Below are positions 4,124 through 21,882 of a stretch of 34,338 bases of DNA, piece after piece (position 1 is the first letter of the stretch; each line of letters begins with the position of its first letter). Below the pieces are notes generated by a model that was given only the letters and a program-made list of their open reading frames with translations, searched no databases and was not told the DNA's origin. Both the position numbers and the translations under genes were made by a program. The DNA is from Pseudomonadota bacterium (GTDB lineage Bacteria; Pseudomonadota; Gammaproteobacteria; Pseudomonadales; Azotimanducaceae). The stretch is taken from assembly GCA_022571415.1 (NCBI GenBank), contig JACZXW010000018.1:1-34338 (forward strand). The letters are read 5' to 3'.

Positions 4124-4151
4124 GTCACATTAAAATATAGTCAACTATACT
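4124..4151 (+). promoter_or_regulatory. Promoter and dyad operator of PhyH 1
   Basis: TATAGTCAACTATA (4136-4149) is a dyad with 6-bp perfect arms. A plausible promoter is GTCACA (4124-4129), 16-bp spacer, TATACT (4146-4151), so the right arm of the dyad overlaps the -10 box and a bound repressor would block RNA polymerase. Transcription would start about 14 bases before the PhyH 1 ATG. The 27 bases 4130-4156 recur with two mismatches, on the opposite strand, upstream of the flavin monooxygenase. It is one of six such sites in the window. Confidence 0.6.
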
Positions 4152-4171
4152 GATATTGAGAAACACCATTA

Positions 4172-5041
4172 ATGACCGACACCAGCCAAGCTCTCCCCGA
4201 AGTTCTTGAGGATCCATCTATCACGCGCCAGCCTTTTGAATTGTCCGCCGAACTCGCCATCCGCGTTGAGGACTTGGGACTTCAGGCAAACTTCGATCAA
4301 ATACGTGATGAGGGATATACGATCATCGAAAACATCGCGACTGAAGAATTTACGGCTCGGCTGCGGGAAACATGTATACAGCTCGCGCAGGAGACTGAAG
4401 GCAGCGCCAAGGGTCATTCAGCCTCACTTCTTTTGGGTCGCGATCCAATATTCGAAGAAGTCGTGCTAAATCCAAAGATCCGGGCACTGGTCGAAGTCAT
4501 GTGCGGGCAAGGCGCGTTACTATCGCAGTTGATTTCTTCCATCCGACCCAAAGGTGCTCCCGCGATCCCCCTGCACGCCGATCAGAACTGGACACCAGCG
4601 CCATTCCCAGTGCACAACCAGCTACTGACGATGTGCTGGACTATGGAGAACTACACTTTTGCCGGTGGCTGCACCAAAGTGATTCCGAAATCCCACCTGC
4701 ATCGCCGCCATCCCGACAAACAAGAAATGGAGCATCAATCGGGTGCCATTCCAACGCAATGCTCTGCGAGCTCCATCGTCTGCTGGGACGGCTCGACCTG
4801 GCACGCCAACTATCCGCGCGACCTTGAAGGCGACCGCGTCGTCCTACACATCACGTTTAGTAGGCTTGCGTTGCGTACGGTGGAAAACTACGACCACCTA
4901 GATGAAAGTTGGCTCGAAGGTAAACCAAAAGAACTCAGGCAGATGCTCGGTCGAGAGGACTTCCTTGGTTCGACAACGATTGCTCGCGGTAGCGCCGACT
5001 ACACGAAGATCCCGAACACCTTCGCCTGGGCGAAGACATGA
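4172..5041 (+). CDS. PhyH-family Fe(II)/2-oxoglutarate dioxygenase (PhyH 1)
   Basis: 289-residue member of the phytanoyl-CoA dioxygenase (PhyH) superfamily: cupin-fold hydroxylases using Fe(II), O2 and 2-oxoglutarate. The iron facial triad is visible as H135-x-D137 (PLHADQNW) and distal H211 (STWHANYPR); Arg222 is a candidate 2-oxoglutarate ligand. The N-terminal helix and the DEGYTIIEN strand match the other PhyH proteins in this window. It is the most divergent copy after the distal His and lacks the YFARP-like segment of PhyH 2 and 5. Its stop overlaps the start of the SCP2-like gene by 4 bp (ATGA), so the two are translationally coupled. Promoter and candidate operator lie immediately upstream. 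The substrate is unknown. Confidence 0.88.
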   Translation: MTDTSQALPEVLEDPSITRQPFELSAELAIRVEDLGLQANFDQIRDEGYTIIENIATEEFTARLRETCIQLAQETEGSAKGHSASLLLGRDPIFEEVVLNPKIRALVEVMCGQGALLSQLISSIRPKGAPAIPLHADQNWTPAPFPVHNQLLTMCWTMENYTFAGGCTKVIPKSHLHRRHPDKQEMEHQSGAIPTQCSASSIVCWDGSTWHANYPRDLEGDRVVLHITFSRLALRTVENYDHLDESWLEGKPKELRQMLGREDFLGSTTIARGSADYTKIPNTFAWAKT

Positions 5042-5460
5042 CTGACGAGGAGGCGAAGGTCGCCTTCGCGAGCCCGGAGTGGATAGATATTGCTCGAACT
5101 GCACTCGAAGAGCTAGTGGCAGCGCATGGTGAAACCGACAAGTCTTTCTCGGTCTGCGAAGTATTCACCGACGCACCTGCTGATCTGACCGGTGCGGACA
5201 CCACTACTGTCGCCTGGCATTTCCGCATTGTGGGCAAGACTGTCACTGTCGGCGAAGGTGAGATCAGCGATGCGGATATGCCTGTACGCGCCGACTACCA
5301 GACAATACTACCGATTGCCCGGCTCGTTTATACGCCAGAGTTGATCGCCCAAAGACAACAAAACGCGTCTCAGGTCGAGGAAGAATCCACCATTGATCGA
5401 TCGAACATGCCGACTTACCTGGTAGAACTCCATAACCGCATGGCTGTGATAACGAAGTAA
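5038..5460 (+). CDS. SCP2-like (sterol-carrier-type) small protein, copy a
   Basis: 140-residue soluble protein without signal peptide or membrane segment. It is homologous to the product of 12418-12852: both share an EVFTDAP/ERFTDAP motif, then W-H-(F/I)-R-I, a GK..VG.G.I.DAD segment and ADY.T.LP.AR. The GxxxVxxGxxxDADxxxxADY stretch resembles the SCP2 lipid/sterol-carrier fold, so a role binding a hydrophobic substrate or acyl-CoA is suggested; the family assignment is tentative. The start codon overlaps the PhyH 1 stop (ATGA). Both copies follow a PhyH gene, so the pair probably works together. Confidence 0.7.
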   Translation: MTDEEAKVAFASPEWIDIARTALEELVAAHGETDKSFSVCEVFTDAPADLTGADTTTVAWHFRIVGKTVTVGEGEISDADMPVRADYQTILPIARLVYTPELIAQRQQNASQVEEESTIDRSNMPTYLVELHNRMAVITK

Positions 5461-5542
5461 AGAAGTCGCGGCCGTGCGATACCGCTCTTAAGGTGCCTGC
5501 TTTAAATCAGAGTCTTAGTATTCAGAAGACTTCGCTCGGCGA

Positions 5543-5759
5543 TGAGAGGTGGCCCCGTTTCTTTGAACAGTCTTTTCGATTCTATAAGTGGGTTCACGCC
5601 TCATCGGTTTATGCGACACCTTCTGCAGCAGCGAGTTAAAGTATGTTTGATCCGGTGTCTTCCGACCCAGACTCGAATGTGGTCGGGGCATCAACGATGC
5701 CTCAATTGGAGGCGCTTATCCACTTAGCGAACTGTTCAGATCTTTGGGGCCACCTCTCA
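5543..5759 (-). mobile_element. Internally deleted IS3-family relic with intact terminal inverted repeats
   Basis: A perfect 14-bp inverted repeat, TGAGAGGTGGCCCC, occurs at 5543-5556 and, inverted, at 5746-5759. The similarity extends inward, with TGAACAGT appearing on both sides. Between the ends lies only about 190 bp: the extreme 5' end of an IS3-type element joined to the last codons of its orfB, read on the minus strand. The element is thus a deletion derivative (MITE-like) that keeps both ends but no transposase. No target-site duplication is apparent. It separates the PhyH 1/SCP2 pair from the flavin monooxygenase. Confidence 0.65.
5544..5691 (-). pseudogene. IS3-family OrfB C-terminal fragment
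   Basis: The minus strand encodes RPHSSLGRKTPDQTYF followed by about 30 residues, the characteristic C-terminus of IS3-family OrfB transposases (R-P-H-S-S-L-G-x-x-T-P). It is joined directly to 5'-end DNA of the same element, so at least 80 per cent of the coding region is gone. Out of frame debris only. Confidence 0.7.
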
Positions 5760-5873
5760 GACTCAACAGGCAAAGTTATCCAAGCGACATGGCTACCTTG
5801 TTAAAGGATGACCAACTCGTCGAAGTAGATAGTAGCGCCAGGACCATTCGGAAAATCGAAGATCAGAAACCAC

Positions 5874-7685
5874 TTAATCAATTTCCAATCCCGCCAGTGA
5901 CCCTTCATCACGCCATTCTCTCAACACTTCAAAAAAGGCTTCAGAACCGGCGCCGTAGTTAGTATTTTGCAAGGATCTCTCTGCAGGCTTACCCTCATAG
6001 TTGTAATAACCAGGCGTGCAATCGGCGAGAAACTTCTGATTCTTGCGTGCCAGCTTGATAATTGTCGCAACCCAAGCCGTCTCGGCAGTCTCACTTGTTT
6101 CGACAACGCGTTGATTGGCGTCCAGGCAATGTTTGATGATGTAAGTAAGGTGCTTGCTTTGCTCATTCAGCGCATGTGGATAATTTGCGGTAAAACCGGT
6201 TTGCACGTGCCCCATCATAAAGCAGTTAGGGAAACCACGGCTATGCATACCGTGAAAAGTTTCGGCTCCATCCGCCCATTTCTCAGTCAGGCTGAGGTTG
6301 TCGCGACCGTAGATCTCGTAACCACACCGACGTGAATAGTCGGTGCCGACCTCAAACCCGGTAGCGAAAATGATGCAATCCAGTTCGTATTCCTTGCCAT
6401 TGGCAACAACGCCTTTTTCGGTAATGCGATCAACGCCCTGGCCCTGCGTATCCACCAACGTCACATTGGGGCGATTAAAGGTTGGCAGATAGTCATCGTG
6501 GAAGCAGGGCCGTTTGCAAAACTGCCGGTAATAGGGTTTTAAGAATTCAGCAGTAGCGTCATCCTCGACGACTTCATCCGCACGCGCCCTGATTGATTCC
6601 ATTTTCTGGAAATCCGCGATTTCCATCTTATGGCTCAAAGCTTCGCGAGACAGATCCGGTTCGCCTTCGTGCCGGATGATGAGCAGAAGATTGCGAATGA
6701 TCTCAGTCCAGCCGTCATTGACAAGATCTTCTTTTGCAAAACCACCCGAGACAAGGATGTTGAAATTATCCATTCGGTTCTGGTGCCATCCCGCCTCGAG
6801 ACCTTGTATCCACTCGGGATCTGTTGGTTTATCATTCCTCTCATCAATTGACGACGGCGTTCGTTGAAACACAAAGAGTTGCTTAGCTGAATCTCCAAGA
6901 TGAGGTACACATTGCACCGCCGTGGCACCGGTACCGATGATGCCAACACGTTTATCTTTGAGACCAGTCAAATTGCCGTGAGCGCTACCACCCGTATAGT
7001 TATAATCCCAACGGCTGGTGTGAAATATGTGACCCTTGTAGCTATCGATTCCCGAAATGCCGGGTAACTTGGGCCGATTGAGTGGTCCGTTTGACATGAC
7101 GACGAATCGGGCTTTCATCGCATCGCCTCGATTGGTGGAGATGGTCCAGCGGTCGATCGAATCATCCCAGCGCATCTCCGTGACTTCGGTTTGCAGGCAG
7201 ACGTCATCGTAGAGGTTGTACTTTCTTGCAATCTGTTGACTGTAGTCGAGAATATCCGCGCCCTCGATGTACTTCTTCTTGGGTACATAGCCCAGTTCTT
7301 CCAGGAGCGGCAAATAGATATAGGATTCAATATCACAGGCAGCGCCCGGGTAGCGGTTCCAGTACCAGGTACCACCAAAGTCGCCACCTTTTTCAATCAT
7401 GCGAATGTTTTGTACACCCGCCTCGCGTAGCCGGGCTCCAGCGAGCAGGCCGCCAAAACCACCGCCGATGATGACAATATCCACCTCGTCCATCAGCACA
7501 TCGCGCTCAATCTTTGCGTCTAAGTATGGATCGTCAATGTAGTGTGCGAAGTCGCCTTTAACTTCCACATATTGTGCATTGCCATCCTCCCTGATGCGCT
7601 TGTCTCGTTCAATCCTGTATTTCTCGCGCAGTTCATGGGGATCAAATCCCAAATCGAGATCTACTGAGATTTCAGCTAATTCCAT
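5874..7685 (-). CDS. Type I Baeyer-Villiger-type flavin-containing monooxygenase
   Basis: 603-residue FAD/NADPH monooxygenase that would insert oxygen next to a ketone to give an ester or lactone. The FAD Rossmann motif GGGFGG is at residues 74-79, the GGTWYWNRYPGAACDIES segment typical of BVMOs at about 104-121, the type I BVMO fingerprint YKGHIFHTSRWD at 216-227 and the NADPH Rossmann motif GTGATA at 251-256. An ATGFEVGTDY segment near the C-terminal third is also typical. About 65 residues precede the FAD motif, longer than cyclohexanone monooxygenase, as in steroid or large-ketone BVMOs. AAGG lies about 9 bases before the ATG. The dyad operator at 7840-7853 lies 155 bp upstream. The exact substrate is not readable from sequence. 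Confidence 0.92.
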   Translation of the reverse strand: MELAEISVDLDLGFDPHELREKYRIERDKRIREDGNAQYVEVKGDFAHYIDDPYLDAKIERDVLMDEVDIVIIGGGFGGLLAGARLREAGVQNIRMIEKGGDFGGTWYWNRYPGAACDIESYIYLPLLEELGYVPKKKYIEGADILDYSQQIARKYNLYDDVCLQTEVTEMRWDDSIDRWTISTNRGDAMKARFVVMSNGPLNRPKLPGISGIDSYKGHIFHTSRWDYNYTGGSAHGNLTGLKDKRVGIIGTGATAVQCVPHLGDSAKQLFVFQRTPSSIDERNDKPTDPEWIQGLEAGWHQNRMDNFNILVSGGFAKEDLVNDGWTEIIRNLLLIIRHEGEPDLSREALSHKMEIADFQKMESIRARADEVVEDDATAEFLKPYYRQFCKRPCFHDDYLPTFNRPNVTLVDTQGQGVDRITEKGVVANGKEYELDCIIFATGFEVGTDYSRRCGYEIYGRDNLSLTEKWADGAETFHGMHSRGFPNCFMMGHVQTGFTANYPHALNEQSKHLTYIIKHCLDANQRVVETSETAETAWVATIIKLARKNQKFLADCTPGYYNYEGKPAERSLQNTNYGAGSEAFFEVLREWRDEGSLAGLEID

Positions 7686-7837
7686 GGTTGTGCCTTATTG
7701 TCGATTTCGTTTCTTGATTGTAAAAAGGTGGTAAGGGAGACACGATCGATGAGATCAGAGGTTAACTCAAAAGGCAGACCTCCGGTCAGGGTTGAGTCGA
7801 ATCGTGCTTCGCTAGCTTCTCTCTCTATCTGGATATC

Positions 7838-7859
7838 AGTATAGTTAACTACATTTTAA
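7838..7859 (-). promoter_or_regulatory. Promoter and dyad operator of the flavin monooxygenase
   Basis: TATAGTTAACTACA (7840-7853; TGTAGTTAACTATA on the minus strand) is a dyad with one arm mismatch. On the minus strand a TATACT -10 box (plus 7838-7843) overlaps the arm. Positions 7833-7859 match 4130-4156 upstream of PhyH 1 at 25 of 27 bases. The leader to the monooxygenase ATG would be about 145 bases. Confidence 0.6.
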
Positions 7860-8113
7860 GGTGCCGCTATCTACATAACAAGCGCTATCGCCGATGGGTC
7901 CGAAGCCACTGCTAAACGTTTGGAAATCTTGCCGAGATTAGAGAAATCCGGAACATACGAAATCCTCAGAAAACGAAGAACAACTAGAAAGTGAAACCAA
8001 CTCCTTTTTATAAGAGAAAGGGCAGCAAGAAAGTGTACTAGGGAACCTCTGATTAAGAGGATATTTTCGTCAGAACTGTTCTTCAAGAGAAGGAAGAGGC
8101 GCACACAGAAAAC

Positions 8114-8138: not shown

Positions 8139-8403
8139 ATTTTTGAGTACGGGCCTGACGCGGTTATGGCGGAAATAGTGGTGCGGCATACCGACCTTAA
8201 TCAGACGTTCTTTAGGTCTTTTCAACGCTTGTGGCATATATATAGTAGAATAGATAAAGATAGCTAGTTACCAGAAAGTCTGTAGATCAGTAGCTTAAGA
8301 CTTCTGCTATTTTTACAGCAAACACCATTGGCCTGGGATTGAGTTAGAATCTTGGTAAAAGAGGGCACGAAAATGCGATTAGAGCGGACCTGACCTCGTG
8401 AAG

Positions 8404-8493: not shown

Positions 8494-8540
8494 TTCTCGT
8501 TCCGGATCGCGGTAATTACCACAATCAAGAGAGGAAAAAA

Positions 8541-9520: not shown

Positions 9521-10141
9521 ATGAATGCCAGGACAGCTCAGTACCCCTTGCGTGAGAAGCGCAAAAAACAAAATCGTACAGGCCTCATGGTCGCTGCGAT
9601 TGATCTCTTCGCAGAAAAAGGTTATGCAGAAACCACCCTTGAGGCGATAGCAGCCAAAGCCGGGCTACACGTGCAGACGCTTTACAAGCACTTTCCCGCC
9701 AAAGCCAATTTGGTTGAAGAGATCTGGCATGAAAGCTTGTCAAGATTCGAAGTGTTTTTTGCCTCCCGGGAGTGCGATGCATTAAGTGCCTGGCGCAACT
9801 GGATCGAACAAAATGCCTTGGAACTGACGCGAGAGGGCGATTCCGAATACCGGAGAAGACGAAACAGTTTTATGGAAATTTCATTCGTATCCAACGCGAC
9901 GCTGCAGTACTGGTATCGCTACCAGGAAGTACTTGCAGAAGGGATTGCTCTAGATATGGGTATCGACGTCGCCCATGATCCGCTGCCCACTTTGATTGCC
10001 TGTATGCTGTGGGGTGGTAACGATAACGCCGCTCGAAACTGGGCCAATTCGGGTACCAAAGACGATCTGGTCAAAGTGTTGTTAAAAGTCGTCGATACAG
10101 TCATAGACGAGTTTCAACATCGATTAAGCCCTCAAGGGTGA
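9521..10141 (+). CDS. TetR/AcrR-family transcriptional regulator (paralog 3)
   Basis: 206-residue TetR repressor, paralogous to those at 1477 and 3282. The HTH is near residues 20-65 (IDLFAEKGYAETTLEAIAAK, GLHVQTLYKHFPAK) and the SRECDALSAWRNWIEQNALE segment is shared almost word for word with paralog 1. The C-terminal core (YRYQEVLAEGIALDM, ACMLWGGN) is shared with paralog 2. GGGAG lies upstream of the ATG. It follows PhyH 2 closely, so it may be coexpressed with it. Its recognition helix is identical to that of the other two, so the three may bind the same operator. Confidence 0.9.
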   Translation: MNARTAQYPLREKRKKQNRTGLMVAAIDLFAEKGYAETTLEAIAAKAGLHVQTLYKHFPAKANLVEEIWHESLSRFEVFFASRECDALSAWRNWIEQNALELTREGDSEYRRRRNSFMEISFVSNATLQYWYRYQEVLAEGIALDMGIDVAHDPLPTLIACMLWGGNDNAARNWANSGTKDDLVKVLLKVVDTVIDEFQHRLSPQG

Positions 10142-10311: not shown

Positions 10312-11284
10312 ATGAGTGACATTTCAAGGACAACCGAACCCAGGCAGCTGTCCGTAATCACGATGTTGTCTTACGGCATCGGCGAAGCGGCAGGCGCATG
10401 CAAAAACATCGCGTGGGGCGTTTTGCTGCTTTTCTATTACCAACAGGTTGTCGGCGTTGAAGCCGCTCTCGTTGGATTGGCGATCGCGATGTCAGTGGTG
10501 GTCGCATACGGCCTCATCACCGCATCTACTTCCCAACGGTTGAGGGCGTATACGACCCCGGCTTCCTAAATCCCGATGGCTATTCGGCAATGGGCCGGAC
10601 CTTTGCCGTGGCCATGGTCGTCGCCATTCTCCTATGCATCGCTGGTACTCGAAAGGAAATCCCTTACCTTCGGCAAACGCAGAAGCGTACGAAATTGAAG
10701 CTCACTACACTCTTTACTGAGATTTTTGCGGTTTTAAAAAACAGCTCATTTCGTGCCGTGTTTTTCGGTCTGCTAACAGGTTCACTAGTCGGCGGAGTGG
10801 GGTCAGCGTTTACAGCCCCATCTGCTTGCGGCTAATGGAAATATCCTGGTTCCCGGACAACGATTCCGATTGAATTCTACCTATTTTTCTTGCAGCCTCC
10901 ACGGTTGGGGCACTGGCGGCCCCCATTATCGGAGCGACGGCGAATTCGATGCTGGCGGACATCGCTGACGAGCATGAACTCGATACTGGCATCCGGCGCG
11001 AAGGTGTTTTGTACTCGGTGCGTGCCTTCACTGCGAAAGCAACCACTGCTTTCGGCACACTTTTCGGCGGCATACTATTAAGCGTGATTGACTTTCCGGT
11101 GAACGCAACCCGTGGTTCGGTCCCTGACGAGACCCTCTGGTACCCAGGCCTCATTGCTGGTCCGGCGACTTCGATCTTTTCTCTTGCGGCGCTTGGTTTC
11201 TACTTTAGATATCGAATCAATTACCAGCGTCACCGCGAGATCATTGCCAAGCTTGAGCAACGCAGACAACAATCAGTTAGATAA
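10312..11284 (+). pseudogene. Decayed GPH/MFS sugar-type cation symporter
   Basis: Fragments of a glycoside-pentoside-hexuronide symporter (MFS_2) are spread over three frames. The first transmembrane region (SYGIGEAAGACKNIAWGVLL) is open from 10312 to 10569. A middle piece (YFPTVEGVYDPGFLNPDGYS onward) is in another frame from about 10525. The C-terminal piece (FLAASTVGALAAPIIG to the end) is in a third frame from about 10890 to 11284. The expected length is about 450 residues but only about 300 codons remain, so transmembrane helices are deleted around 10525 and 10830 and the frame is broken. The position between TetR paralog 3 and PhyH 3 suggests it was once the inner-membrane importer of the cluster. 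Confidence 0.75.
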
Positions 11285-11385: not shown

Positions 11386-11401
11386 TATAGCCTAGTATAC
11401 A
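11386..11401 (+). promoter_or_regulatory. Dyad operator and -10 of PhyH 3
   Basis: TATAGCCTAGTATA (11386-11399) fits the TATAGY-NN-RCTATA dyad with one deviation in the right arm. TATACA at 11396-11401 is a plausible -10 overlapping that arm. It lies 46 bases before the PhyH 3 ATG. No strong -35 is visible. Confidence 0.5.
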
Positions 11402-11445: not shown

Positions 11446-12378
11446 ATGGCTATCGATCGCTATTTGCTGGCCAAAGAGTTGAATGCGCTGCGTGAGTTAG
11501 CGCTAAAAAAATGGGCCGAGGACCCGCTGCCGGTCGGTCGAGCCGCCATCGAACGCTTGAAGACAGAAATTGATGCACACGACCTTCAGCAAAACATTAC
11601 AGAACTAGAAACCGACGGTTATACCATTCTGCCACCCGGCAAAGCTGCTCATATAGACCTGATAGAGCGCATCAAACAAGCCATGCTGCGCATTATGGCA
11701 ACCACACGCAGCGATGTGATGGGTGCGTCATCCGGTTTGGGATCGACGCTTTTTCATATGCTACCCGAGGATCCGGTGTTCGAGGAAGCTCTAATGGCGC
11801 CCGCACCACTGACACTCCTCAGCTACATCCTCGGCTACCGGGCCAAGCTCAGTCAATGTACAGGGTTGATCAAAAATAGCGATGCACCTGCGCTACCACT
11901 GCACGCCGATCACAGCGGTAAGTTTCCGGCACCCTGGAGCAGGCTGTCTAACTATTCGGTGGTGACCTGGGTACTTACAGACTATACCCGTGAAAACGGA
12001 GCTTTGTGTGTCTGGCCGGGTAGCCACCGTTTCAGTCGACCGGTTCCACCCGATCTGATCATGGCTCATGATCACGAAGAAATCAGGGTAGTTGAAGTAC
12101 CGGCCGGTTCGGTGATCATCTGGCACGGCAGCCTGTGGCATGGCGCCGTGCCGCGTACTGCCGAAGGCCAGCGCATGGCATTAGTGTTGCCGCACGTACG
12201 CGACCCGATCCAACCGCAGGAGATCTTCTGGGCGTCGACAACGCCCGAGATGATTGAGCGTAATCAATCGCGGTTCTGCACCTTGATGGGGCTGACTTCG
12301 GCGGGACCCTGGATGCAGGATGGACCCAACCCGGCAAGACTGGCGATGGGCCCAACAACGGGTTCGCAGTTCGAGTAG
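11446..12378 (+). CDS. PhyH-family Fe(II)/2-oxoglutarate dioxygenase (PhyH 3)
   Basis: 310-residue PhyH-type hydroxylase. The iron triad is H153-A-D155 (PLHADHSG) and H232 (SLWHGAVPR); Arg243 is a likely 2-oxoglutarate ligand. About 40 additional residues precede the conserved LETDGYTILPP strand. The W.LTDYTRENGAL segment is shared with PhyH 4, 6 and 7. The ATG at 11446 has AAGGGGATGGGA upstream. The second SCP2-like gene follows after 39 bases on the same strand, recreating the PhyH 1/SCP2 pair, and a dyad operator precedes the gene. Confidence 0.9.
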   Translation: MAIDRYLLAKELNALRELALKKWAEDPLPVGRAAIERLKTEIDAHDLQQNITELETDGYTILPPGKAAHIDLIERIKQAMLRIMATTRSDVMGASSGLGSTLFHMLPEDPVFEEALMAPAPLTLLSYILGYRAKLSQCTGLIKNSDAPALPLHADHSGKFPAPWSRLSNYSVVTWVLTDYTRENGALCVWPGSHRFSRPVPPDLIMAHDHEEIRVVEVPAGSVIIWHGSLWHGAVPRTAEGQRMALVLPHVRDPIQPQEIFWASTTPEMIERNQSRFCTLMGLTSAGPWMQDGPNPARLAMGPTTGSQFE

Positions 12379-12417: not shown

Positions 12418-12852
12418 ATGGATAAATTCGAATTCTGTAGCGAAGCTTGGGTCGGCATCGCACGGGACTATATCGAGACTCAATGTGCGGCCAATGATAT
12501 CTCCGACATACGTCTCTCCTTCTGTGAACGTTTTACCGACGCGCCACCAGAGCTTGCCACCGAAGACAACAATGTCACAGGTTGGCATATTCGTATAAAG
12601 GACGGCAAGCTGGAGGTTGGCCATGGTGTGATTGTTGATGCGGATCTCACAATTACGGCAGACTACGCAACGGTTTTACCGCTAGCTCGCACGGTTTTCG
12701 AAGGTAATGCAGCAGCTGCGGCCGAGGCAGCCAAGATAGTCGCAGCTGCAATGGCTGCAGGAAAAATGTCAAGAGATGGAGACGAAACCGCCATGTCGAA
12801 GGCAACCTTTCTCGCCGGTATGCACGACGTACTCGCAAAACGTACCCTGTAG
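12418..12852 (+). CDS. SCP2-like (sterol-carrier-type) small protein, copy b
   Basis: 144-residue soluble protein homologous to the 5038-5460 product. The shared blocks are ERFTDAP, the W-H-I-R-I strand, DGKLEVGHG, DADLTITADY and LPLARTVF. The central half resembles the SCP2 lipid/sterol carrier fold; the C-terminal part is Ala-rich and helical (EAAKIVAAAMAAGKM). A strong Shine-Dalgarno (GGAGG) lies upstream. It is downstream of PhyH 3 in an apparent two-gene operon. A role in presenting or binding a hydrophobic substrate for the oxygenase is inferred. Confidence 0.7.
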   Translation: MDKFEFCSEAWVGIARDYIETQCAANDISDIRLSFCERFTDAPPELATEDNNVTGWHIRIKDGKLEVGHGVIVDADLTITADYATVLPLARTVFEGNAAAAAEAAKIVAAAMAAGKMSRDGDETAMSKATFLAGMHDVLAKRTL

Positions 12853-12970: not shown

Positions 12971-13894
12971 TCAAATTGCAGCGGTGAGTTGCGGCACGGC
13001 TTGGGTCTGAACCTCATACGGGAATTTATCGTCAAAGCCCAGTAGTTCACGCATCATCTCGGGATTGTCACAGTCCTCCCAGGGCTCGTCGCGCATCGTA
13101 AACTTCAAGTTTTCCTGCGGTAACGTCGATACATGCCGGTAGTAGCTGACACAGTTGAGTCGCAAACCGGGGGTCAACTTCGGATAAGCACCATGCCATG
13201 TCGACCCGACAAAAATAAGGACGGAACCTCTAGGCGCCTCCGCGGCTACAGCCTGTTTGGCTGCAGCCGGCTGGGCAGGATGCGCGTTTAACTTGTGTGA
13301 ACCTGGCACATAGGCAAGGGCTCCATCTTCCTTGGTATAGTCTGTCAAGCACCAGGTTGCATTTGCTGTCATTGCAGTGTGTCCCCACGGCAATGGGTTG
13401 GCGCCTTGATCGCAGTGTAAGCCTAGGTATTTGCCATACCCATAATCACCCTGCCATTTTACAAATGAATTGGTGCTGCTGAGGCGTCGAGCTTTACCTC
13501 CTAGAACAGAAATCGGTCCCATTGCATGGTCGATCAACGCATCTACCACAGGATTGACTGCCAGGTCGCGGAAACAACGATCAAGTTGTAACAATTGCTG
13601 GATAAGCATTTGCGTAGGTAATGGCGGCTCGTTTTCATCACGGAGTTGGCTTCGGGTCCCTTCTGGCCAGGTAAGTTCTCCTTTGGGACCCTCTTTAATA
13701 CTGATTGGGCATCCACCCGTCATCTCGGTAAAACGCTTCAGCAATACTTCTGTGCAGCGGTCCAGAACCTTATCGGTCACCCCAGTGACCTCCGGCGGCA
13801 CAATGGTGATGCCATCCGTTTCAAGCTCTAAAGTGTACTGTTCGAGACCAAGTGTTTTGATCTCTTTACTTAATTTAGTAGCGGCAGTTTGCAC
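12971..13894 (-). CDS. PhyH-family Fe(II)/2-oxoglutarate dioxygenase (PhyH 4)
   Basis: PhyH-type hydroxylase of 307 residues from the GTG at 13894. This start has GGAGAG five to six bases upstream and a sensible leader from the -10 box. An in-frame ATG at 13921 would sit at the predicted transcription start. Counted from that ATG, the iron triad is H169-C-D171 (GLHCDQGA) and H243 (TWHGAYPK), with Arg254 as the 2-oxoglutarate candidate. The LTDYTKEDGALAYVPGSHK core is well conserved. It carries an insert of roughly 30 residues before the active site, around the GPKGELTWPEGTRSQLRDEN region. The dyad operator is at 13933-13946. It converges on the PhyH 3/SCP2 pair. Confidence 0.88.
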   Translation of the reverse strand: MQTAATKLSKEIKTLGLEQYTLELETDGITIVPPEVTGVTDKVLDRCTEVLLKRFTEMTGGCPISIKEGPKGELTWPEGTRSQLRDENEPPLPTQMLIQQLLQLDRCFRDLAVNPVVDALIDHAMGPISVLGGKARRLSSTNSFVKWQGDYGYGKYLGLHCDQGANPLPWGHTAMTANATWCLTDYTKEDGALAYVPGSHKLNAHPAQPAAAKQAVAAEAPRGSVLIFVGSTWHGAYPKLTPGLRLNCVSYYRHVSTLPQENLKFTMRDEPWEDCDNPEMMRELLGFDDKFPYEVQTQAVPQLTAAI

Positions 13895-13929
13895 GGATAC
13901 TCTCCAGATTAAAACTAGCATTCAACATT

Positions 13930-13946
13930 TAATATAGCATACTATA
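13930..13946 (-). promoter_or_regulatory. Dyad operator and -10 of PhyH 4
   Basis: TATAGCATACTATA (13933-13946) reads TATAGTATGCTATA on the minus strand. The minus-strand -10 TATATT (plus 13930-13935) overlaps the dyad arm, and TTACAT about 17 bases upstream is an acceptable -35. The predicted start of transcription near 13922 supports the downstream GTG start for PhyH 4. Confidence 0.55.
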
Positions 13947-14413: not shown

Positions 14414-16843
14414 CTATTGCCCCGGCGAGTAACTAAACTCAATGCCAACAGTACGCGGTCGTCCAAAGCGGTAACCGACTGCATTAAATTCGTAGACAAT
14501 CACGTCATCGAACGCGTTACGAACATAGGCAGCAACCATCCAGCCATTTCGTCGCCCAGTTAGTTTCAAATCTACCTTCGTGTAGGAAGGTGAGACTCGT
14601 TCGTTGTTCGAATCTGCAAATTGATCATCGACATAAGTCGCGTTTACAGAGAAAGTCGAGCTCCAATCGCTAATGGGAAAGTTCCAATTGAAAGAGACAT
14701 AGCCGCTTGTCTTCGGCGCTTTACCCAGGCGATTGCCCGGATCCACACCAACACCACCATAACGCCCAGAGACGCCGCCACTGCCAATCTCCGCTTTCCA
14801 GTTGTTGTCGCCACCAAAATTCAAGCGCATGGAGTCATTCAGCAAAATGGCGACTTCAATTTCGATACCCTGACTTTGGGCATCACCACTGTTGATGGAG
14901 AAGGAATAACCTAGCGGGCTCACGCCGGTAAAGACCCCATCAATCACATCCGTCACGGTAACGAGCACATCTTCCCAATCCATGTTGTAGATCGAGCTGG
15001 TAAGCTGAACACGACCATTAAGCAGTGTCGCTTTCAGTCCAACCTCATAGTTAAGCACTTGATCGCCGTCAGTTATCCGCTGATCTACCAACCGGTTATA
15101 GTGCTCAAGCGCTGCGGGATCGGTGTCCTTCAAGAGTTCCAGCCCGGCAACCCGGGCTGACAGACCTGTATTGATAATACCGGGGCGATATCCCTGGGCG
15201 TAAGTGAAGTAAGTCATCAAATCGTCATTAGGACGCCAGGTCAGGGTGACTTTTGGGGAGACTATATCGTCGTCAGTGCTGAGTGAATCGATTAGATTCG
15301 AACGCGAGTTGGACAAGGGCTGCGCCAGATCAAGATCGTAACTCGTGTCAGCCAGGCGTAGACCGACAAGCAGTTCCCACTGTTCATTGAAGCGGTAACT
15401 CACCTCACCATAGACAGCTGTTTCTTCATAGTCGTTGAACGCCCGGGATCCGCCAATGATGCCAGTGATGAGGTTAACAGCAGCTTCCTGTGTGGCTGCG
15501 GGTGTGCCTTCCTGGAAAAAGTACTGTAACCAGCACGTAGCACCGGTCGCGGCATAGGCAGCACTGCCGCCACCCGCACAACTGGTATGCTTGCCAGTGA
15601 TTGAAGTGTCGTCCTTGTAGTAGGCTCCTAACGTCCATTGCCAGGAACTGTCGGGGTTGTTCGACACCAAACGAAACTCTTGAATCTTTCGTTCTACATC
15701 TCGGCGGAAAGCCCCGTCACCGCCCAGACCCGCCAACCCAAACGCGCCGCCGAAAGCAGCGACCAGTCCGCCAGAAAAACGGGGTGAGGTTTCTTCTGCG
15801 TGTCTTGACAGTCGATCAAAATAGGACGACGAAGAGGTAAAGGTTGCCCAGGGCAGTTCCCAATCGACCGAGAAGTTGTAGACAATATGCTCGTCGCTAC
15901 TATCGTAAGTGAAGTCGGGGTGTGCCAGATGGGTGACGTATGGATCCCGATGATTAAACTGATCGGTGTCTTTGCCGTCGCAGGTTTCGCCCGGCAAGTC
16001 GTAGCTTGGTATTTGCCCGTTAGGATCTGAGAGGTTTGCTTCCGTATAGCAATGGAACGCAAGACCCGGCGCGCCGAATTCAGAATCACTATAGTTGACC
16101 ATGGCGGCCAAGCTCAGGTTATCGTTAACGTCCCATGCCATTTTGATGCGGAAAGCATCTTCTTCTTCCCAGTTGATGTCATCCTCACCCCGCGGCAACG
16201 ATGCATCCATAAAGCCGGTACGATCTCGACGATTACCAACAATTCGAACTGCAAAGCTATTGTTGAACAATGGGATGTTGAGCATGAAATCTGTGTTGTA
16301 GGACAAGCCGTCGGATTCACTGTTCTGTTCGACAGCCACCTTTATCTTCCAATCGAACGCACTTGGATCTGGATTCTTGGTGATGTATCGAATTGCACCC
16401 CCCATGTTGCCTTCGCCATACAAAGTGCCTTGCGGCCCCCTCAATACCTCGACACGTTGCAGGTCAGTAGTCGAACCGAGCACTTGAGTCAGGACGCCTG
16501 TACTGCTGGTGATTGGAACGTTGTCCATGTAGACGCCAACCACCGCCTGACCACCTGCCGGAGGGGTGAGGCCGCGAATAGTAATCGTGTTGTAGGTTGC
16601 CGAGTTGCTCCCGTAGGACATACCCGGAATGACCTGATAGAGGGTTTGGATGTTCTCGATACCTTTGGTTTCGAGTTCCAAAGCGGTAACCGCAGTTATT
16701 GCTATGGGTACATCCATCAGCTTGACGTCGCGGTACGTGGCGCTGACGATAATTTCCTCCATCCGCGGTTCGTCTTTGGCGGCAATCGGAAATACGCTGG
16801 ATATTGATATAGAGAGAACAACGATTACGGATAGTCTTTTCAT
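14414..16843 (-). CDS. TonB-dependent outer-membrane receptor (intact copy)
   Basis: 809-residue TonB-dependent transporter that would import a ligand across the outer membrane using TonB energy. It has a signal peptide (MKRLSVIVVLSISISSVFPI, cleavage near AAK), a TonB-box-like EEIIVSATY, a plug domain (about residues 40-155, with TIRGLTPPAGGQAVVGVYMD and VEVLRGPQGTLYGEGNMGGA), then a 22-strand-type beta-barrel up to RPRTVGIEFSYSPGQ. AAAGGAG precedes the ATG. The family resembles sphingomonad-like receptors for small hydrophobic or carbohydrate ligands rather than classic siderophore receptors, but the ligand cannot be read. A dyad operator at 16967-16980 links it to the PhyH genes. The receptor at 22040-24446 is a decayed paralog. 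Confidence 0.93.
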   Translation of the reverse strand: MKRLSVIVVLSISISSVFPIAAKDEPRMEEIIVSATYRDVKLMDVPIAITAVTALELETKGIENIQTLYQVIPGMSYGSNSATYNTITIRGLTPPAGGQAVVGVYMDNVPITSSTGVLTQVLGSTTDLQRVEVLRGPQGTLYGEGNMGGAIRYITKNPDPSAFDWKIKVAVEQNSESDGLSYNTDFMLNIPLFNNSFAVRIVGNRRDRTGFMDASLPRGEDDINWEEEDAFRIKMAWDVNDNLSLAAMVNYSDSEFGAPGLAFHCYTEANLSDPNGQIPSYDLPGETCDGKDTDQFNHRDPYVTHLAHPDFTYDSSDEHIVYNFSVDWELPWATFTSSSSYFDRLSRHAEETSPRFSGGLVAAFGGAFGLAGLGGDGAFRRDVERKIQEFRLVSNNPDSSWQWTLGAYYKDDTSITGKHTSCAGGGSAAYAATGATCWLQYFFQEGTPAATQEAAVNLITGIIGGSRAFNDYEETAVYGEVSYRFNEQWELLVGLRLADTSYDLDLAQPLSNSRSNLIDSLSTDDDIVSPKVTLTWRPNDDLMTYFTYAQGYRPGIINTGLSARVAGLELLKDTDPAALEHYNRLVDQRITDGDQVLNYEVGLKATLLNGRVQLTSSIYNMDWEDVLVTVTDVIDGVFTGVSPLGYSFSINSGDAQSQGIEIEVAILLNDSMRLNFGGDNNWKAEIGSGGVSGRYGGVGVDPGNRLGKAPKTSGYVSFNWNFPISDWSSTFSVNATYVDDQFADSNNERVSPSYTKVDLKLTGRRNGWMVAAYVRNAFDDVIVYEFNAVGYRFGRPRTVGIEFSYSPGQ

Positions 16844-16966
16844 TGGATTTCTCCTTTCGACTTTTATATTTTTATAAACTCACGATACTTAAATGTGGGA
16901 AATGTGGGTTCGTTGTAATTGCTTGGTTTGTTTGTAGCCCACTATTCGGTTCGCCTCTAAATTAAA

Positions 16967-16980
16967 CATAGTACGCTATA
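16967..16980 (-). promoter_or_regulatory. Dyad operator upstream of the TonB receptor
   Basis: CATAGTACGCTATA reads TATAGCGTACTATG on the minus strand, matching the shared dyad with one arm mismatch. A TATGTT -10 overlaps its end, giving a leader of about 115 bases to the receptor ATG. No strong -35 is visible. Confidence 0.5.
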
Positions 16981-17634: not shown

Positions 17635-18414
17635 TCATCGCGGACATTGTCCGTCGTCAACCTTGATGACTGTGCCTGTCACGCATTCCGAAGAGGGAGA
17701 GACGAGAAACAACAAGGTACTGTCCATTTGCGCAGGATCACAGATTCGCTTGCGCGGAAATGCCTGGCTGATGTCACCGATTCGTTGAAGCATGCCATCC
17801 ATCATCTCGGAAGAGAACGCCCCCGGTGCAATGCAATTGACGTTAATGTTGAACCGAGCCCATTCAGCTGCAAATGCTTCCGTCATACGGACAATGCCCA
17901 TTTTTGTGGTGGAGTAGAGAGCAGCAGCGGAATGCCCTGTGGTGTTAAATGCAGCCATGGAAGAGATGTTAACCATACGCCCAGGGAGTTTTTGGTCTAT
18001 CAGTCGCCTGGCTACCTCACAGGATAAAATCCAAGGACCCACCAGGTTGGTGTCAAAAACGTTATCGATTAATTCATCGGACATCTTGACAGCCCGTTGT
18101 GCATCCGGGATGCCAGCGTTGTTGACTAGGATGGTAACGGTGCCGAAAAAGTTTTCGGCTTTCTTCAGGGTCGAGCGAATACTGTTCCGGTCCGTCATAT
18201 CAATGTGGATGGGTTCGCAAATTCCACCATCGGCACGAATCTCATCGGCAAGGGATTCAAGCTTTTCGACTCTCCTTCCGGTAAGGATGACCTTGGCGCC
18301 GCACTTGGCCAATACCTGTGCGAATCGTTTGCCCAGTCCGGAAGTGGTTCCCGTCACTAGCGCTACCTGATCAGACAAATCGAGGGAGAAATTAGGTGTG
18401 GCGAAATCGGTCAT
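17635..18414 (-). CDS. Short-chain dehydrogenase/reductase (SDR)
   Basis: 259-residue classical SDR, an NAD(P)-dependent alcohol/ketone oxidoreductase. From the ATG at 18414 the cofactor motif TGTTSGLG is at 21-28, NNAG at 98-101, the catalytic Tyr167 and Lys171 (YSTTK) with Ser151/152, and the PG motif follows in NCIAPGAF. A TTG at 18432 would add six residues. The product could make the ketone used by the Baeyer-Villiger enzyme or oxidise a hydroxyl introduced by a PhyH enzyme; both are inferences. It is the last gene of the minus-strand run PhyH 7-6-5-SDR, but 209 bases separate it from PhyH 5, so it may have its own promoter. Confidence 0.92.
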   Translation of the reverse strand: MTDFATPNFSLDLSDQVALVTGTTSGLGKRFAQVLAKCGAKVILTGRRVEKLESLADEIRADGGICEPIHIDMTDRNSIRSTLKKAENFFGTVTILVNNAGIPDAQRAVKMSDELIDNVFDTNLVGPWILSCEVARRLIDQKLPGRMVNISSMAAFNTTGHSAAALYSTTKMGIVRMTEAFAAEWARFNINVNCIAPGAFSSEMMDGMLQRIGDISQAFPRKRICDPAQMDSTLLFLVSPSSECVTGTVIKVDDGQCPR

Positions 18415-18623
18415 ATGAGTAATCCAACGCAAACGCGCATTATTGGTGAGTCATGAATTAAAAACCATCTTTACTGAAGTTTTTAGGGTCAGGATGTATA
18501 AACTAACGATTTACTTCCATTAGTTCTGGAGACATTCGGTTGAACTTCACCGGTGTTAACAATTATTAAACAATATGGGCGTATTATGGCTGATTGACCA
18601 CTCCGACACCGTTACAGGCAGAC

Positions 18624-19514
18624 TCAGTCGTATAGACCCCGTGGCGCTTTAGCCATCATTTCGAAATCGGGTCCTTCATGCTGCCAGCCATAAGCCTGGT
18701 TGCCCGCCAACAATCTTTTGAACCTCTCATCGTTAGAGTGTCGCTTCAGCACCTCCTCGGGGACCACACCTTTATGTCGCTCCTGGGTCACCACATTATG
18801 CCGGGCGAAGTACACCGCGAGATTCATCCGGATGCCCGGTATCTGCCGGGGAAACGAGCCATGCCAGGTGCCGCCGTGCCACACCACCGCATCGCCGGGA
18901 GTCAGATCCATGGACACTGCAGACGGATTGCATTGCTCCCCGGTTAAACTCATTTCAGGCAGAGTGGGCTGGCGCGCGAGTTTGTGGCTCCTCGGAACCA
19001 TGGCCAGTGCACCGGCTTCGCGACTATAGGGTGTCAGTGCATAGTTCGCATTGGCAACCATAGAATACACCGGGTGGGGGGCTGGTCCGGCGGTGTCGCT
19101 GTGTAAGGGAATCACACCACCTTCGCCCGGTCCCTTGAAGTGACAGCCAATGCTCGACAGCAAACAGCTCTCGCCGAGCAGGTAAGTGATGAGCGCCAGT
19201 GGTTTCTCCTCCATCAGGATCTGCTCGAAGACTTCGTCCTCATAAAGCATGTAGTGCAAATAGGTCATTCCTTCGAAGTCGTCAGTGGTGGCAGTGTCCA
19301 GATCAATCCGTTTCCCGGTATTTTTTTCGACCCGATTCAGGAGGGCGTTTTTGGCCCGTTCGATTCGATCCTCGGACAGGACTCCCCTAATGGTTGTATA
19401 ACCAGTCGTTTCGAGTTCAATCAGGTTATCTTTCAAACCTAATTCGTCGATCTTGCTTAGCGTGCGGCTCAGGGCTTGTTCATCAGGTGATTGGGTGATT
19501 GGTGCTTCAGACAT
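18624..19514 (-). CDS. PhyH-family Fe(II)/2-oxoglutarate dioxygenase (PhyH 5)
   Basis: 296-residue PhyH-type hydroxylase. The iron triad is H138-S-D140 (PLHSDTAG) and H218 (TWHGSFPR), with Arg229 (PGIRMNLAVYFAR) as the 2-oxoglutarate candidate. It resembles PhyH 2 most by eye (CHFKGPGEGGVIPLH, NPSAVSM...GDAVVWHGGTWHG). AAGGAG lies just before the ATG. It follows PhyH 6 with a 51-bp gap on the same strand, forming an apparent operon PhyH 7-6-5. The substrate is unknown. Confidence 0.9.
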   Translation of the reverse strand: MSEAPITQSPDEQALSRTLSKIDELGLKDNLIELETTGYTTIRGVLSEDRIERAKNALLNRVEKNTGKRIDLDTATTDDFEGMTYLHYMLYEDEVFEQILMEEKPLALITYLLGESCLLSSIGCHFKGPGEGGVIPLHSDTAGPAPHPVYSMVANANYALTPYSREAGALAMVPRSHKLARQPTLPEMSLTGEQCNPSAVSMDLTPGDAVVWHGGTWHGSFPRQIPGIRMNLAVYFARHNVVTQERHKGVVPEEVLKRHSNDERFKRLLAGNQAYGWQHEGPDFEMMAKAPRGLYD

Positions 19515-19565
19515 TTCGAACTCCTTGGGATATTGACATGATCTTTTCTAATGAGGAACCTTCCA

Positions 19566-20564
19566 TTATTCTGCTTCTGCAGTACGTACCTTGTAGTTGA
19601 AACCGCGTTTGTAATCCGGTCCTTCTTTACCCCATCCCTGGACGTCGTCTGCGCCGAGAATGCGCGCAAAACGCGCGCTCCTGCGTGCCAGCATTTCATC
19701 AGGGACCGCGTACTGATAGCGCTCTTGGGTCTTGAGCATCTTATGGCAGTGATAGCTGGTCAGATTGAGGCGGATGCCAGGAGTCGTGCGGCGAAAAGCG
19801 CCGTGCCAGGTACCACCCTGCCAGAGGATTAAAGAGCCGGTTTCCGCTTCAACCGGTACTGCGTCGTCGATACCTTCGCCAGGAAGTGGTTGGCGAGCCA
19901 GGCGATGCGATCCCGGCACTACCGCGAGCGCACCATTTTCCTCCGTGTATGGCGTCAGCACCAGCGCCGAGTTGCACACCAGGTTGTAGCCTAACGGAAT
20001 AACACCTTCTGGCGAACCAGGCGAGTCGCTGTGCAGACCGAGGGTTAGCTTCTCGTCCATATCCTCATTATACCAACGCACGAATGCAACCATGCTGGAG
20101 AGTTGGCCATGACCACGCATCATGTGATCGATCATTGCCCCCAGGACGGGATTTTCCAGCCACTCCTCAAAGACTTCGTCTTCGAACAACAGATAGAACA
20201 GCAAATAGGCATCGCCATTGGTGACCTCGGTGGTGTATTTGCCGGGATTGCCTGGTTTTTCCAGCTGGTGGGAAACGCCGGTGCGTTCTTCGGCGACCCG
20301 TAATATCGTCTGCGTCACCCGTTCAATGAATTCAGGTGGCGCAACGCGTTTCGGTGGGATAACGGTGTAGCCTTTAACATCCAGCTCGAGCGCATAGCTC
20401 TGCAGATCCAAAGCGGCGATCCGTTCCTCGATGTTAGATACGGGTTGTTTGCGTAATTTGGACATCGCACCGCGAGCTGCTTTTCTTTGTTCGTAAATCA
20501 CCTTTAGCTGATCTCGAGTCAGTGCGACATCTGGTTTGGCTTTTCTAATGGATTGTTCTGTCAT
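19566..20564 (-). CDS. PhyH-family Fe(II)/2-oxoglutarate dioxygenase (PhyH 6)
   Basis: 332-residue PhyH-type hydroxylase from the ATG at 20564, chosen because CGGAG lies seven to nine bases upstream; a TTG at 20603 would add 13 residues. From the ATG, the iron triad is H178-S-D180 (LGLHSDSPG) and H254 (TWHGAFRR), with Arg265 as the 2-oxoglutarate candidate. About 50 basic N-terminal residues precede the conserved LELDVKGYTVIPP strand. The VLTPYTEENGALAVVPGSHR core is well conserved. It is the middle gene of the PhyH 7-6-5 run, 114 bases after PhyH 7. Confidence 0.9.
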   Translation of the reverse strand: MTEQSIRKAKPDVALTRDQLKVIYEQRKAARGAMSKLRKQPVSNIEERIAALDLQSYALELDVKGYTVIPPKRVAPPEFIERVTQTILRVAEERTGVSHQLEKPGNPGKYTTEVTNGDAYLLFYLLFEDEVFEEWLENPVLGAMIDHMMRGHGQLSSMVAFVRWYNEDMDEKLTLGLHSDSPGSPEGVIPLGYNLVCNSALVLTPYTEENGALAVVPGSHRLARQPLPGEGIDDAVPVEAETGSLILWQGGTWHGAFRRTTPGIRLNLTSYHCHKMLKTQERYQYAVPDEMLARRSARFARILGADDVQGWGKEGPDYKRGFNYKVRTAEAE

Positions 20565-20678
20565 GCTGAGTTCTCCGTATAAAAATGATTGTATTTCTGC
20601 CAACCAAACCCATCAACTGAAGCCTTCTCCGCCGCGGGTCTCGGCGATGTGATGCGCTCGGTTCGCGCGCCAGAGTGG

Positions 20679-21719
20679 TTACGCCTGATTTTCCTTGTTG
20701 GATGTTGCTGACACCTGGCCTTTATACATGTCCGGAAAGGACGTCTTCTTTTTACTCATCCGCTCCTTGGTCATCTCCCCGGTCTTGGCATCGTACAGAT
20801 GATAGTCACCCTCCTCCGGAACCTGCAACTTGTCCCCTGCCGGTTCCGTGTCGAACAGACTCAGGTAGCCTTGCGGTGCCTGCATCGTTTTCGCGTAATT
20901 CGGTGTTTTACCCCAGGGCATTGCATTGTACACGTTCATTAAGCGTGCAAACCGCAGCGGATTACGTGCCAATGCCTCAGTCGTTACGGTTTGCCGATAA
21001 GCCTCCTGGGTTTGCATATGCGGGCGGTTGAACATGCCTAAAATCATCAGGCGCAGGCCATCGGTCTTTTTCGGATAAGAACCGTGCCACGTGTGGTCGC
21101 CCCAAATGACCATAGACCCTGCCGGTGCCTCGATGGCTTGCGCGTTATCCGCCCAGTATTCTGCTTCTTCTGATGAAGGCAAGCGCCGCCAACGATGACT
21201 GCCCGGCACGAACGAAAGGCCACCATCTTCTTTCGAATAATCGGTGAGCAGATAGTTGAAGTTGGCACCGTAGGTTTCCACCGCCATGGTCGGCATGTCG
21301 AACTGCGACCAGTCTGCATGCACGGCAGTGCGGGATTCCCCTTTGCCCTTGATCCAGGCATTGCACAGGCTGAGCACGCAATTTGTGCCCACCAGCCACT
21401 GAATCAAGCCCAGGGCAGCAGGATGCAACACCAGTTTTTCAAAAATGAGATCATCCCAAAGCACAAAACGGAGTAGTTCCTGGCCATCGGAAAAAACTTC
21501 TTCCAGGTCATCAACCACACATTGCTTACGCTCACAGGCGATACGCAGCACCGCTTCACGTGCGGCGTCATGTTGTTCCTGCGGACCCACCTTTTCCGGT
21601 GGCAGCACCGTGAAGCCGAACGCTTCCAGTTCGGTAAGATGTTCCAGCAGGTCCAACTGTTTGAGTTCGCGATACAACGCCGGTGTATGTTTAGCCGAAG
21701 GCCAATCTTCGATTTTCAT
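20679..21719 (-). CDS. PhyH-family Fe(II)/2-oxoglutarate dioxygenase (PhyH 7)
   Basis: 346-residue PhyH-type hydroxylase, the first gene of the PhyH 7-6-5 run. The iron triad is H134-A-D136 (AVHADWSQ) and H212 (TWHGSYPK); Arg223 is the 2-oxoglutarate candidate. A charged C-terminal extension (about 60 residues after the MPWGKTPNY segment) is absent from the other paralogs and may be a partner-binding or regulatory tail. AGGAG precedes the ATG. The dyad operator at 21848-21861 lies 129 bases upstream and is shared with the divergent TonB receptor pseudogene. Confidence 0.9.
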   Translation of the reverse strand: MKIEDWPSAKHTPALYRELKQLDLLEHLTELEAFGFTVLPPEKVGPQEQHDAAREAVLRIACERKQCVVDDLEEVFSDGQELLRFVLWDDLIFEKLVLHPAALGLIQWLVGTNCVLSLCNAWIKGKGESRTAVHADWSQFDMPTMAVETYGANFNYLLTDYSKEDGGLSFVPGSHRWRRLPSSEEAEYWADNAQAIEAPAGSMVIWGDHTWHGSYPKKTDGLRLMILGMFNRPHMQTQEAYRQTVTTEALARNPLRFARLMNVYNAMPWGKTPNYAKTMQAPQGYLSLFDTEPAGDKLQVPEEGDYHLYDAKTGEMTKERMSKKKTSFPDMYKGQVSATSNKENQA

Positions 21720-21845
21720 GTGAATCTCCTTTCTGACCTGGGGGTGTTCACCCGGTGCTGTATGGATTGTGAGAAAGCCAACCCGCTGCCGTCAGATCCC
21801 ACCCAAGGCATCCCCTGCGGTGCATCGTTAGTGGCTGTCTCTATC

Positions 21846-21882
21846 AATATAGTTTGCTATACATTTATGCTTAGATTATAGT
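21846..21882. promoter_or_regulatory. Divergent promoter region with shared dyad operator (PhyH 7 / TonB receptor)
   Basis: TATAGTTTGCTATA (21848-21861) is the sixth copy of the dyad. On the minus strand a TATATT -10 (plus 21846-21851), followed by TGATAG as at PhyH 1, serves PhyH 7. On the plus strand TTGCTA (21854-21859), a 17-bp spacer and TATAGT (21877-21882) form a promoter for the receptor pseudogene. One bound protein could block both directions. Confidence 0.55.

Follow-up and report, generated by a model that had tools for sequence, protein, structure and literature searches.

A 14-bp palindrome at the gene starts of an oxygenase island is the predicted operator of one TetR subfamily

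Contig JACZXW010000018.1 of a gammaproteobacterium of the family Azotimanducaceae (assembly GCA_022571415.1; genome G000, contig C21, in our numbering) was analyzed over its entire length of 34,338 bp, and is referred to here as the window. It carries an island of genes for PhyH-family oxygenases, TonB-dependent receptors and TetR-type regulators, and at six gene starts in this island there is a copy of the same 14-bp dyad, TATAGT-N2-ACTATA, or a close variant of it. Sequence comparison makes it very probable that this dyad serves a single subfamily of TetR proteins as operator and controls the receptors, the PhyH oxygenases, a Baeyer–Villiger-type flavin monooxygenase (BVMO) and associated genes. 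The positions of the sites, their enrichment in the island, their association with the TetR subfamily across genomes, and the recurrence of certain types of target are established by computation. The original prediction had spoken of an undescribed regulon of receptors, oxygenases and BVMO, and this stands: independent genomes tie the palindrome both to the TetR subfamily and to target genes of these kinds. Regulons built on TetR operators are of a known kind; it is the operator of this unnamed subfamily that is newly predicted, and no description of it, or of the regulon, was found among the matches listed from the open-licence PMC literature.

The six dyads of the window

Direct inspection finds the dyads at positions 4136, 7840, 11386, 13933, 16967 and 21848, and profile matches bear out the genes that had been assigned to them. 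Those at 4136, 13933 and 21848 match TATAGYNNRCTATA exactly; those at 7840, 11386 and 16967 differ from it by one mismatch. Operator 1 (TATAGTCAACTATA, 4136-4149) lies 22 bp upstream of PhyH1, in front of the pair PhyH1-orf140; operator 2 (TATAGTTAACTACA, 7840-7853) precedes the BVMO gene, which is on the minus strand, by 154 bp; operator 3 (TATAGCCTAGTATA, 11386-11399) is 46 bp upstream of PhyH3 and the pair PhyH3-orf144; operator 4 (TATAGCATACTATA, 13933-13946) precedes the longest open reading frame (ORF) of PhyH4 by 11 bp; and operator 5 (CATAGTACGCTATA, 16967-16980) precedes the gene for TonB receptor 1 by 123 bp. Operator 6 (TATAGTTTGCTATA, 21848-21861) is placed between PhyH7, which is on the minus strand and is followed by PhyH6, PhyH5 and a short-chain dehydrogenase/reductase (SDR), and TonB receptor 2, which is on the plus strand. 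All six are non-coding and no more than 200 bp upstream of a gene start, and DNA of this description makes up 8.6% of the window.

Palindromes of this sort might arise by chance in intergenic DNA that is richer in A and T than the rest, and non-coding DNA here has a GC content of 45.6%, against 50.6% overall. A blind palindrome search confined to the window and using 5-bp arms does not place the motif among the leading palindromes. With 6-bp arms the best count, five, goes to ATATAG-N4—the motif in a shifted register—but the maxima in shuffled windows were three in 52 of 60 and four in the other eight, a result of modest significance. The case rests on the relatives described below rather than on the window alone.

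Counts of the motif itself are less forgiving of chance. With up to two mismatches there are 11 matches in the window where 1.82 are expected (100 shuffles, of which the largest had five). A check of how often the motif occurs elsewhere in the genome (2,558,498 bp, or 2.56 Mb, in 159 contigs) brought no refutation: all three exact matches, and six of the nine with no more than one mismatch, are in the window, whose share of the genome is 1.3%. A binomial estimate of this concentration, made by hand, comes to about 5e-10, and is biased since the motif was picked from this same window. Taken with the enrichment in independent genomes, the blind search there, and a reversed-pattern control, these counts contradict chance, which we regard as barely credible.

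Near-matches on other contigs of the genome were likewise inspected and taken as chance. Those on C68 and C154 are inside coding sequences; that on C74 is between genes for an M23 peptidase and a tyrosyl-tRNA synthetase-like protein, and that at C1:402 is ahead of a HipA-like gene, these last being named by eye.

The dyad accompanies a TetR subfamily in other genomes

One scan of a species-genome collection with the protein patterns GLHVQTLY or ECDAL[SNT]AW gave 39 further loci (L055-L093), among them loci from Halieaceae, Pseudomonadales, other gammaproteobacterial metagenome-assembled genomes, and Hyphomonadaceae, including Ponticaulis. Since these loci were found through protein patterns, they were selected for the recognition helix and not for the DNA motif. 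Eight near-duplicates were dropped, leaving 31 loci for a blind search and for the counts of target classes. The blind search covered the 250 bp upstream of the 31 non-redundant TetR genes, and considered all 4096 six-base half-sites with spacers of 0-8, allowing up to two mismatches in 12. TATAGT-N2-ACTATA came out on top, upstream of 10 of the 31 genes, while the maxima in 15 shuffled sets were 4-5.

Counts of the window motif in all 39 loci tell the same story. Exact copies number four, where none is expected from ten random sequences per locus; there are 21 copies with no more than one mismatch (0.9 expected), and 68 with no more than two (16.7 expected). An operator of a TetR repressor should be a palindrome found at the promoters of the regulator gene and of neighboring or divergent genes. 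In 14 of the 39 relatives a copy with up to two mismatches precedes the TetR gene by no more than 300 bp, and all six dyads of the window are at the starts of neighboring genes. When the letters of the half-site were rearranged in 180 ways, the mean number of such loci was 1.8, and the top three arrangements were variants of the motif.

A weight matrix made from the 21 near-matches in the relatives, and applied to the window, ranks the six dyads first to sixth (operators 1, 6, 2, 4, 3 and 5, in that order), with scores from 21.6 to 12.6; the seventh-ranked site scores 11.2. For 100 shuffled windows the top score was 10.3 on average and 16.8 at most. Operators 3 (16.2) and 5 (12.6) are under this maximum and are thus the least secure on score alone, operator 5 the least of the six. 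The matrix is partly circular, because its input sites were chosen for being within one mismatch of the window pattern; the blind upstream search is the non-circular test. A possible weak second site (TGTAGCCCACTATT, 16933-16946; two mismatches) is located 34 bp from operator 5 and scores 8.4, less than the mean shuffle maximum; the relative L084 likewise has two sites 34 bp apart. In L065 the TetR gene is preceded by three copies spaced 18 bp apart, of which two have two mismatches.

In a tree of 37 TetR proteins, the upstream site is present in 14 rows, and eight changes are needed to account for it; only 12 of 500 shuffles of the labels gave a number as low. Because these 14 rows are spread over several clades, the site is, as judged from the tree, old or repeatedly kept, yet often absent.

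A further sample comprised 390 genomes of the order, the window's own included, which were searched with a 20-sequence TetR alignment, at most seven candidates being scored per genome. It yielded four new TetR homologues, in three genomes, and three of the four have a site with no more than one mismatch beside the TetR gene. In L166 the site is exact, and separates the TetR gene from a divergent MFS gene, overlapping the first codons of the longest MFS frame; in L167 and L170 there is a one-mismatch site between the TetR gene and, respectively, a divergent MFS gene and a divergent PhyH gene. The fourth, L168, has no site within 300 bp of the TetR gene, and its recognition helix reads ISIRTLLRHF rather than (L/V)H(V/L)QTL(Y/I)xHF. 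By eye, genes resembling AMP-dependent acyl-CoA ligases occur near the TetR genes of L166, L167 and L168, and glutathione S-transferase-like genes in two of them.

Genes at which the site recurs

In the relatives, the site is placed between the TetR gene and a divergent TonB receptor in L057 (where the called receptor ORF overlaps the sites), L060, L065 and L084; between TonB and SDR genes, and with two mismatches between PhyH and TetR genes, in L086; between TonB and PhyH genes, and between an orf140 homologue and PhyH, in L076; and between the TetR gene and a gene for an esterase, an amidohydrolase or an MFS transporter in L071, L088, L082 and L085. Across the 31 loci, counting sites with no more than one mismatch from -200 to +45 of a gene, the site is found at 10 of 28 TetR genes, 4 of 9 TonB and 3 of 12 PhyH genes, 1 of 8 SDR, 1 of 2 abhydrolase-like and 1 of 3 solute-binding protein genes, against 9 of 294 unclassified genes.

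Exact TRTAGYNNRCTAYA sites point the same way. In four genomes, 11 of 20 lie no more than 400 bp upstream of a PhyH match, compared with 0 of 13 for the reversed control pattern; by hand count, the share is 3/6 in G000, 3/4 in G065, 4/9 in G068 and 1/1 in G073, the sole exact site of which separates two divergent PhyH-like genes. All four exact sites of G065 fall inside 11.4 kb of a similar island, that of L076. Exact sites exceed the reversed pattern in G000 (6 versus 2) and in G068 (9 versus 2).

A search for the subfamily at E <= 1e-20 in 57 other genomes found a member in two, G020 and G012, and none in the four genomes of the same genus; G073 appears to be the G020 genome again, with the same 7,509-bp contig. 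Same-genus genomes G002 and G003 have no exact site beside genes of island type: the C31 site of G002 is in coding sequence, while in G003 the C130 site is ahead of a bc1-complex gene and the C156 site is past the last listed ORF, near the contig end. A nested pair of dyads, TATAGCATACTATTATAGTATGCTATA, is present at L052:9284-9310 (G003:C130), upstream of a gene that by eye is of Rieske/bc1 type; G003 is one of the same-genus genomes in which the island TetR was not found.

The TetR proteins

Three candidate repressors are encoded in the window, all on the plus strand: TetR1 (1567-2157), TetR2 (3291-3917) and TetR3 (9521-10141), the last downstream of PhyH2. Each matches the TetR_N helix-turn-helix profile PF00440, at 50.7-56.8 bits against a cut-off of 24. 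The three are paralogues, 55-62% identical, with a common recognition helix, GLHVQTLYxHF, and DNA-binding halves that are 66-79% identical; their ligand domains have diverged further, to 49-55% identity. They are the sole members of the subfamily found in their genome at E <= 1e-5. Among the NCBIfam matches listed for them, all are far under the curated cut-offs, and on these scores the island proteins belong to no named equivalog. The structural model of TetR3 is all-helical, with nine helices and a C-terminal ligand domain (mean pLDDT 87.8), and gives 179 PDB matches at E <= 0.001, the best 50 of which we take, by title or known identity, to be TetR-family regulators.

Promoters, and a rival reading of the dyad

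TATAGT agrees with the -10 consensus TATAAT in five of six positions, and the dyad can be read on either strand. It might then be a symmetric -10 element, giving strong or bidirectional promoters that need no dedicated regulator; in several directions, predicted promoter elements do overlap the sites or adjoin them, and one site separates divergent genes. A general promoter element would be expected at many starts, however, and six of the nine near-matches of the genome are on one contig. In the blind search upstream of TetR genes it is TATAGT-N2-ACTATA that emerges, the TATAAT palindrome being absent from the 15 best, and in the further sample the site tracks the TetR subfamily. Nor are promoter-like sites enriched in the region (20, against a shuffle mean of 18.4). 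We think a symmetric -10 element very unlikely.

The original prediction held that the right arm usually forms part of the -10 box, and here it fared badly: a simple sigma-70 score puts the best -10 there for PhyH4 only. By eye, the right arm plus two bases matches TATAAT in at least four of six positions in all seven directions, but TATA belongs to the motif itself. PhyH1 and BVMO have a common geometry, in which a predicted promoter, TTGTTA-17-TAAAAT, abuts operators 1 and 2.

Points that weigh against a TetR operator

A number of observations fit poorly with the dyad as operator of the TetR subfamily. The promoter predictions are weak. In 25 of the 39 relatives there is no site with up to two mismatches before the TetR gene, and among the 31 loci no site with up to one mismatch lies from -200 to +45 of BVMO-like (0/2), other ABC-transporter (0/9) or orf140-like (0/1) genes. 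Some sites are in the wrong places: SDR and PhyH genes converge on the pair at L086:2318/2330, which thus has a 3' end on either side and no gene start, sites in certain relatives (L118, L119, L120 and L126, for example) are inside called ORFs, and some adjoin genes of other kinds (MerR/SGL, in G068). Summed over 17 genomes, exact sites show no excess, numbering 44 against 55 for the reversed control. In the window, no site with one mismatch or fewer accompanies PhyH2-TetR3, the abhydrolase or the peptide transporter; PhyH2 has a two-mismatch site at 8241, the matrix score of which, 10.0, is no better than shuffles.

The TetR genes of the window, too, are without a site of their own—the best within 250 bp upstream have three or four mismatches—and therefore the repressors would not be self-controlled through the dyad. 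This last point invites the idea that the sites are those of a different regulator, whose gene is elsewhere in the genome, and that TetR genes are merely its frequent neighbors or targets. Such a regulator would have to explain why the palindrome accompanies one TetR subfamily in both Gammaproteobacteria and Hyphomonadaceae, and in several clades of the tree. The homologue with the diverged recognition helix, L168, lacks the site, although this is one case only, and three of the six TetR genes detected in the genome at E <= 1e-6 are in the window. We consider another regulator improbable, and prefer the TetR proteins themselves.

How the regulon might work

That TetR proteins bind the dyad, that they repress rather than activate, and that a ligand releases them, we infer. 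A TetR dimer would bind TATAGT-N2-ACTATA over the promoter, or just downstream of it, and so block transcription. A compound brought in by the TonB receptors, or the product of its oxidation, would then bind in the TetR pocket and release the repressor, whereupon TonB receptors, PhyH oxygenases, BVMO, SDR and SCP2-like proteins would be made together, uptake and oxidation being induced in concert. With operons deduced from orientation and spacing, the six operators would cover PhyH1-orf140, BVMO, PhyH3-orf144, PhyH4, TonB receptor 1, and the divergent PhyH7-6-5-SDR and TonB receptor 2-DUF1330 units.

Since the recognition helices of TetR1, TetR2 and TetR3 are identical and their ligand domains have diverged, the three may respond to different compounds while sharing their operators. 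And because none of them controls its own gene through the site, they could compete, or form heterodimers, on the six operators, in which event several compounds would converge on one portable switch of a transposase-flanked island. We offer this last idea tentatively, and think it rather less likely to be right than wrong.

If the operator is as predicted, an unnamed TetR subfamily gains a site that can be searched for, and scattered PhyH/TonB/BVMO islands, mostly from uncultured proteobacteria, become defined regulons. Defining the regulon would show which of the receptors and oxygenases have a compound in common, and release of TetR from a known 14-bp site would provide a handle with which to screen for ligands.

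The island and its genes

The window encodes seven PhyH-family oxygenases, BVMO, SDR, an alpha/beta hydrolase, two small SCP2-like proteins, two TonB-dependent receptors, the three TetR proteins and a peptide-type ABC transporter. Transposase genes are present near both ends of the contig, and another lies between DUF1330 and the transporter. PhyH1 (4172-5041, plus strand; PF05721) belongs to the iron/2-oxoglutarate oxygenase family, and is followed by orf140 (5038-5460, plus), which has no Pfam match and the best folds of which are sterol-carrier proteins, a weak resemblance (E 0.006). BVMO (5874-7685, minus) was identified by NCBIfam and PDB comparison; it scores 850 bits against the pentalenolactone D synthase (PtlE) model, below the cut-off of 1100, and its closest PDB entry is 5mq6. 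Profile matches identify PhyH3 (11446-12378, plus), PhyH4 (12971-13921, minus; its true start is possibly inside the longest ORF) and PhyH5, PhyH6 and PhyH7 (18624-21719, minus). Gene orf144 (12418-12852, plus), downstream of PhyH3, is a homologue of orf140 (37% identity), and SDR (17635-18432, minus) is the final gene of the PhyH7-6-5-SDR run, in which co-transcription is suggested by orientation. TonB receptor 1 (14414-16843, minus) matches PF00593 and PF07715. TonB receptor 2 (21998-24446, plus) is represented by two ORFs, 21998-23158 and 23229-24446, in different frames (23158/23229), which points either to a disrupted gene or to a misassembly.

In an alignment of the seven PhyH proteins the H-x-D...H and R positions are invariant; these are the residues expected to bind iron and 2-oxoglutarate. 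The genome has 15 PhyH genes, eight of them outside the window, and none of the eight is on a contig with another near-match to the dyad. PhyH-family matches at E <= 1e-6 are strikingly expanded elsewhere: 73 in G068 (a 3.7-Mb genome, to which L084 and L086 belong), 41 in G065 and 29 in G073. The company of BVMO, PhyH oxygenases, SDR and SCP2-like carriers, the last named from weak fold matches, suggests a substrate that is hydrophobic and cyclic, a terpenoid or steroid for example.

Two other features were noticed. The stretch 10949-11284 is a C-terminal remnant of an MFS_2 transporter; the island copy looks decayed, and a full-length counterpart exists in G020 (L050:4511-5977), adjoining a related TetR-PhyH pair. 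At 31542-31639, at the end of the solute-binding protein gene, a 49-bp unit is present in two perfect tandem copies.

Comparison with known systems

FadR of Bacillus and KstR of Mycobacterium have the same helix-turn-helix family, PF00440, as the island TetR proteins, and structures of both (3whc for FadR, 3mnl and 5fmp for KstR) match the TetR3 model. Their logic, in which one repressor governs several operons and is relieved by a substrate or intermediate, is the same as that proposed here. The island proteins score 22.9-27.0 bits against the KstR equivalog, NF033703, under its cut-off of 280, and we know of no operator of KstR or FadR type that has the form TATAGT-N2-ACTATA. AmtR of Corynebacterium and NrdR also use AT-rich palindromic boxes with CTAT and ATAG elements, and these resemble the dyad; in AmtR, however, the halves are ordered CTAT...ATAG, the inverse of the order here. 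NrdR does not belong to the TetR family, and it binds a pair of boxes.

By profile, the nearest named regulator is MftR of the mycofactocin system: TIGR03968 is the best NCBIfam match of all three island proteins (49.3, 51.2 and 56.2 bits), none of which reaches the cut-off of 224.9, and the MftR C-terminal domain gives below-cut-off matches in two of the three. No mycofactocin gene is among the named genes of the window. The MftR operator spans 27 bp and contains the pattern T-N2-GGCA-N5-TGCC-N2-A (PMC8728441), and its GGCA-N5-TGCC core differs from TATAGT-N2-ACTATA. PheR of Sphingobium is an IclR-family protein with a GCAACG core to its site (PMC13273656), so that it differs from the island regulators in both family and site. 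When PheR is removed, catabolic genes and TonB-dependent receptors rise in concert (PMC13273656): one repressor presides over both catabolism and uptake, which, by analogy only, is the logic we propose for the island.

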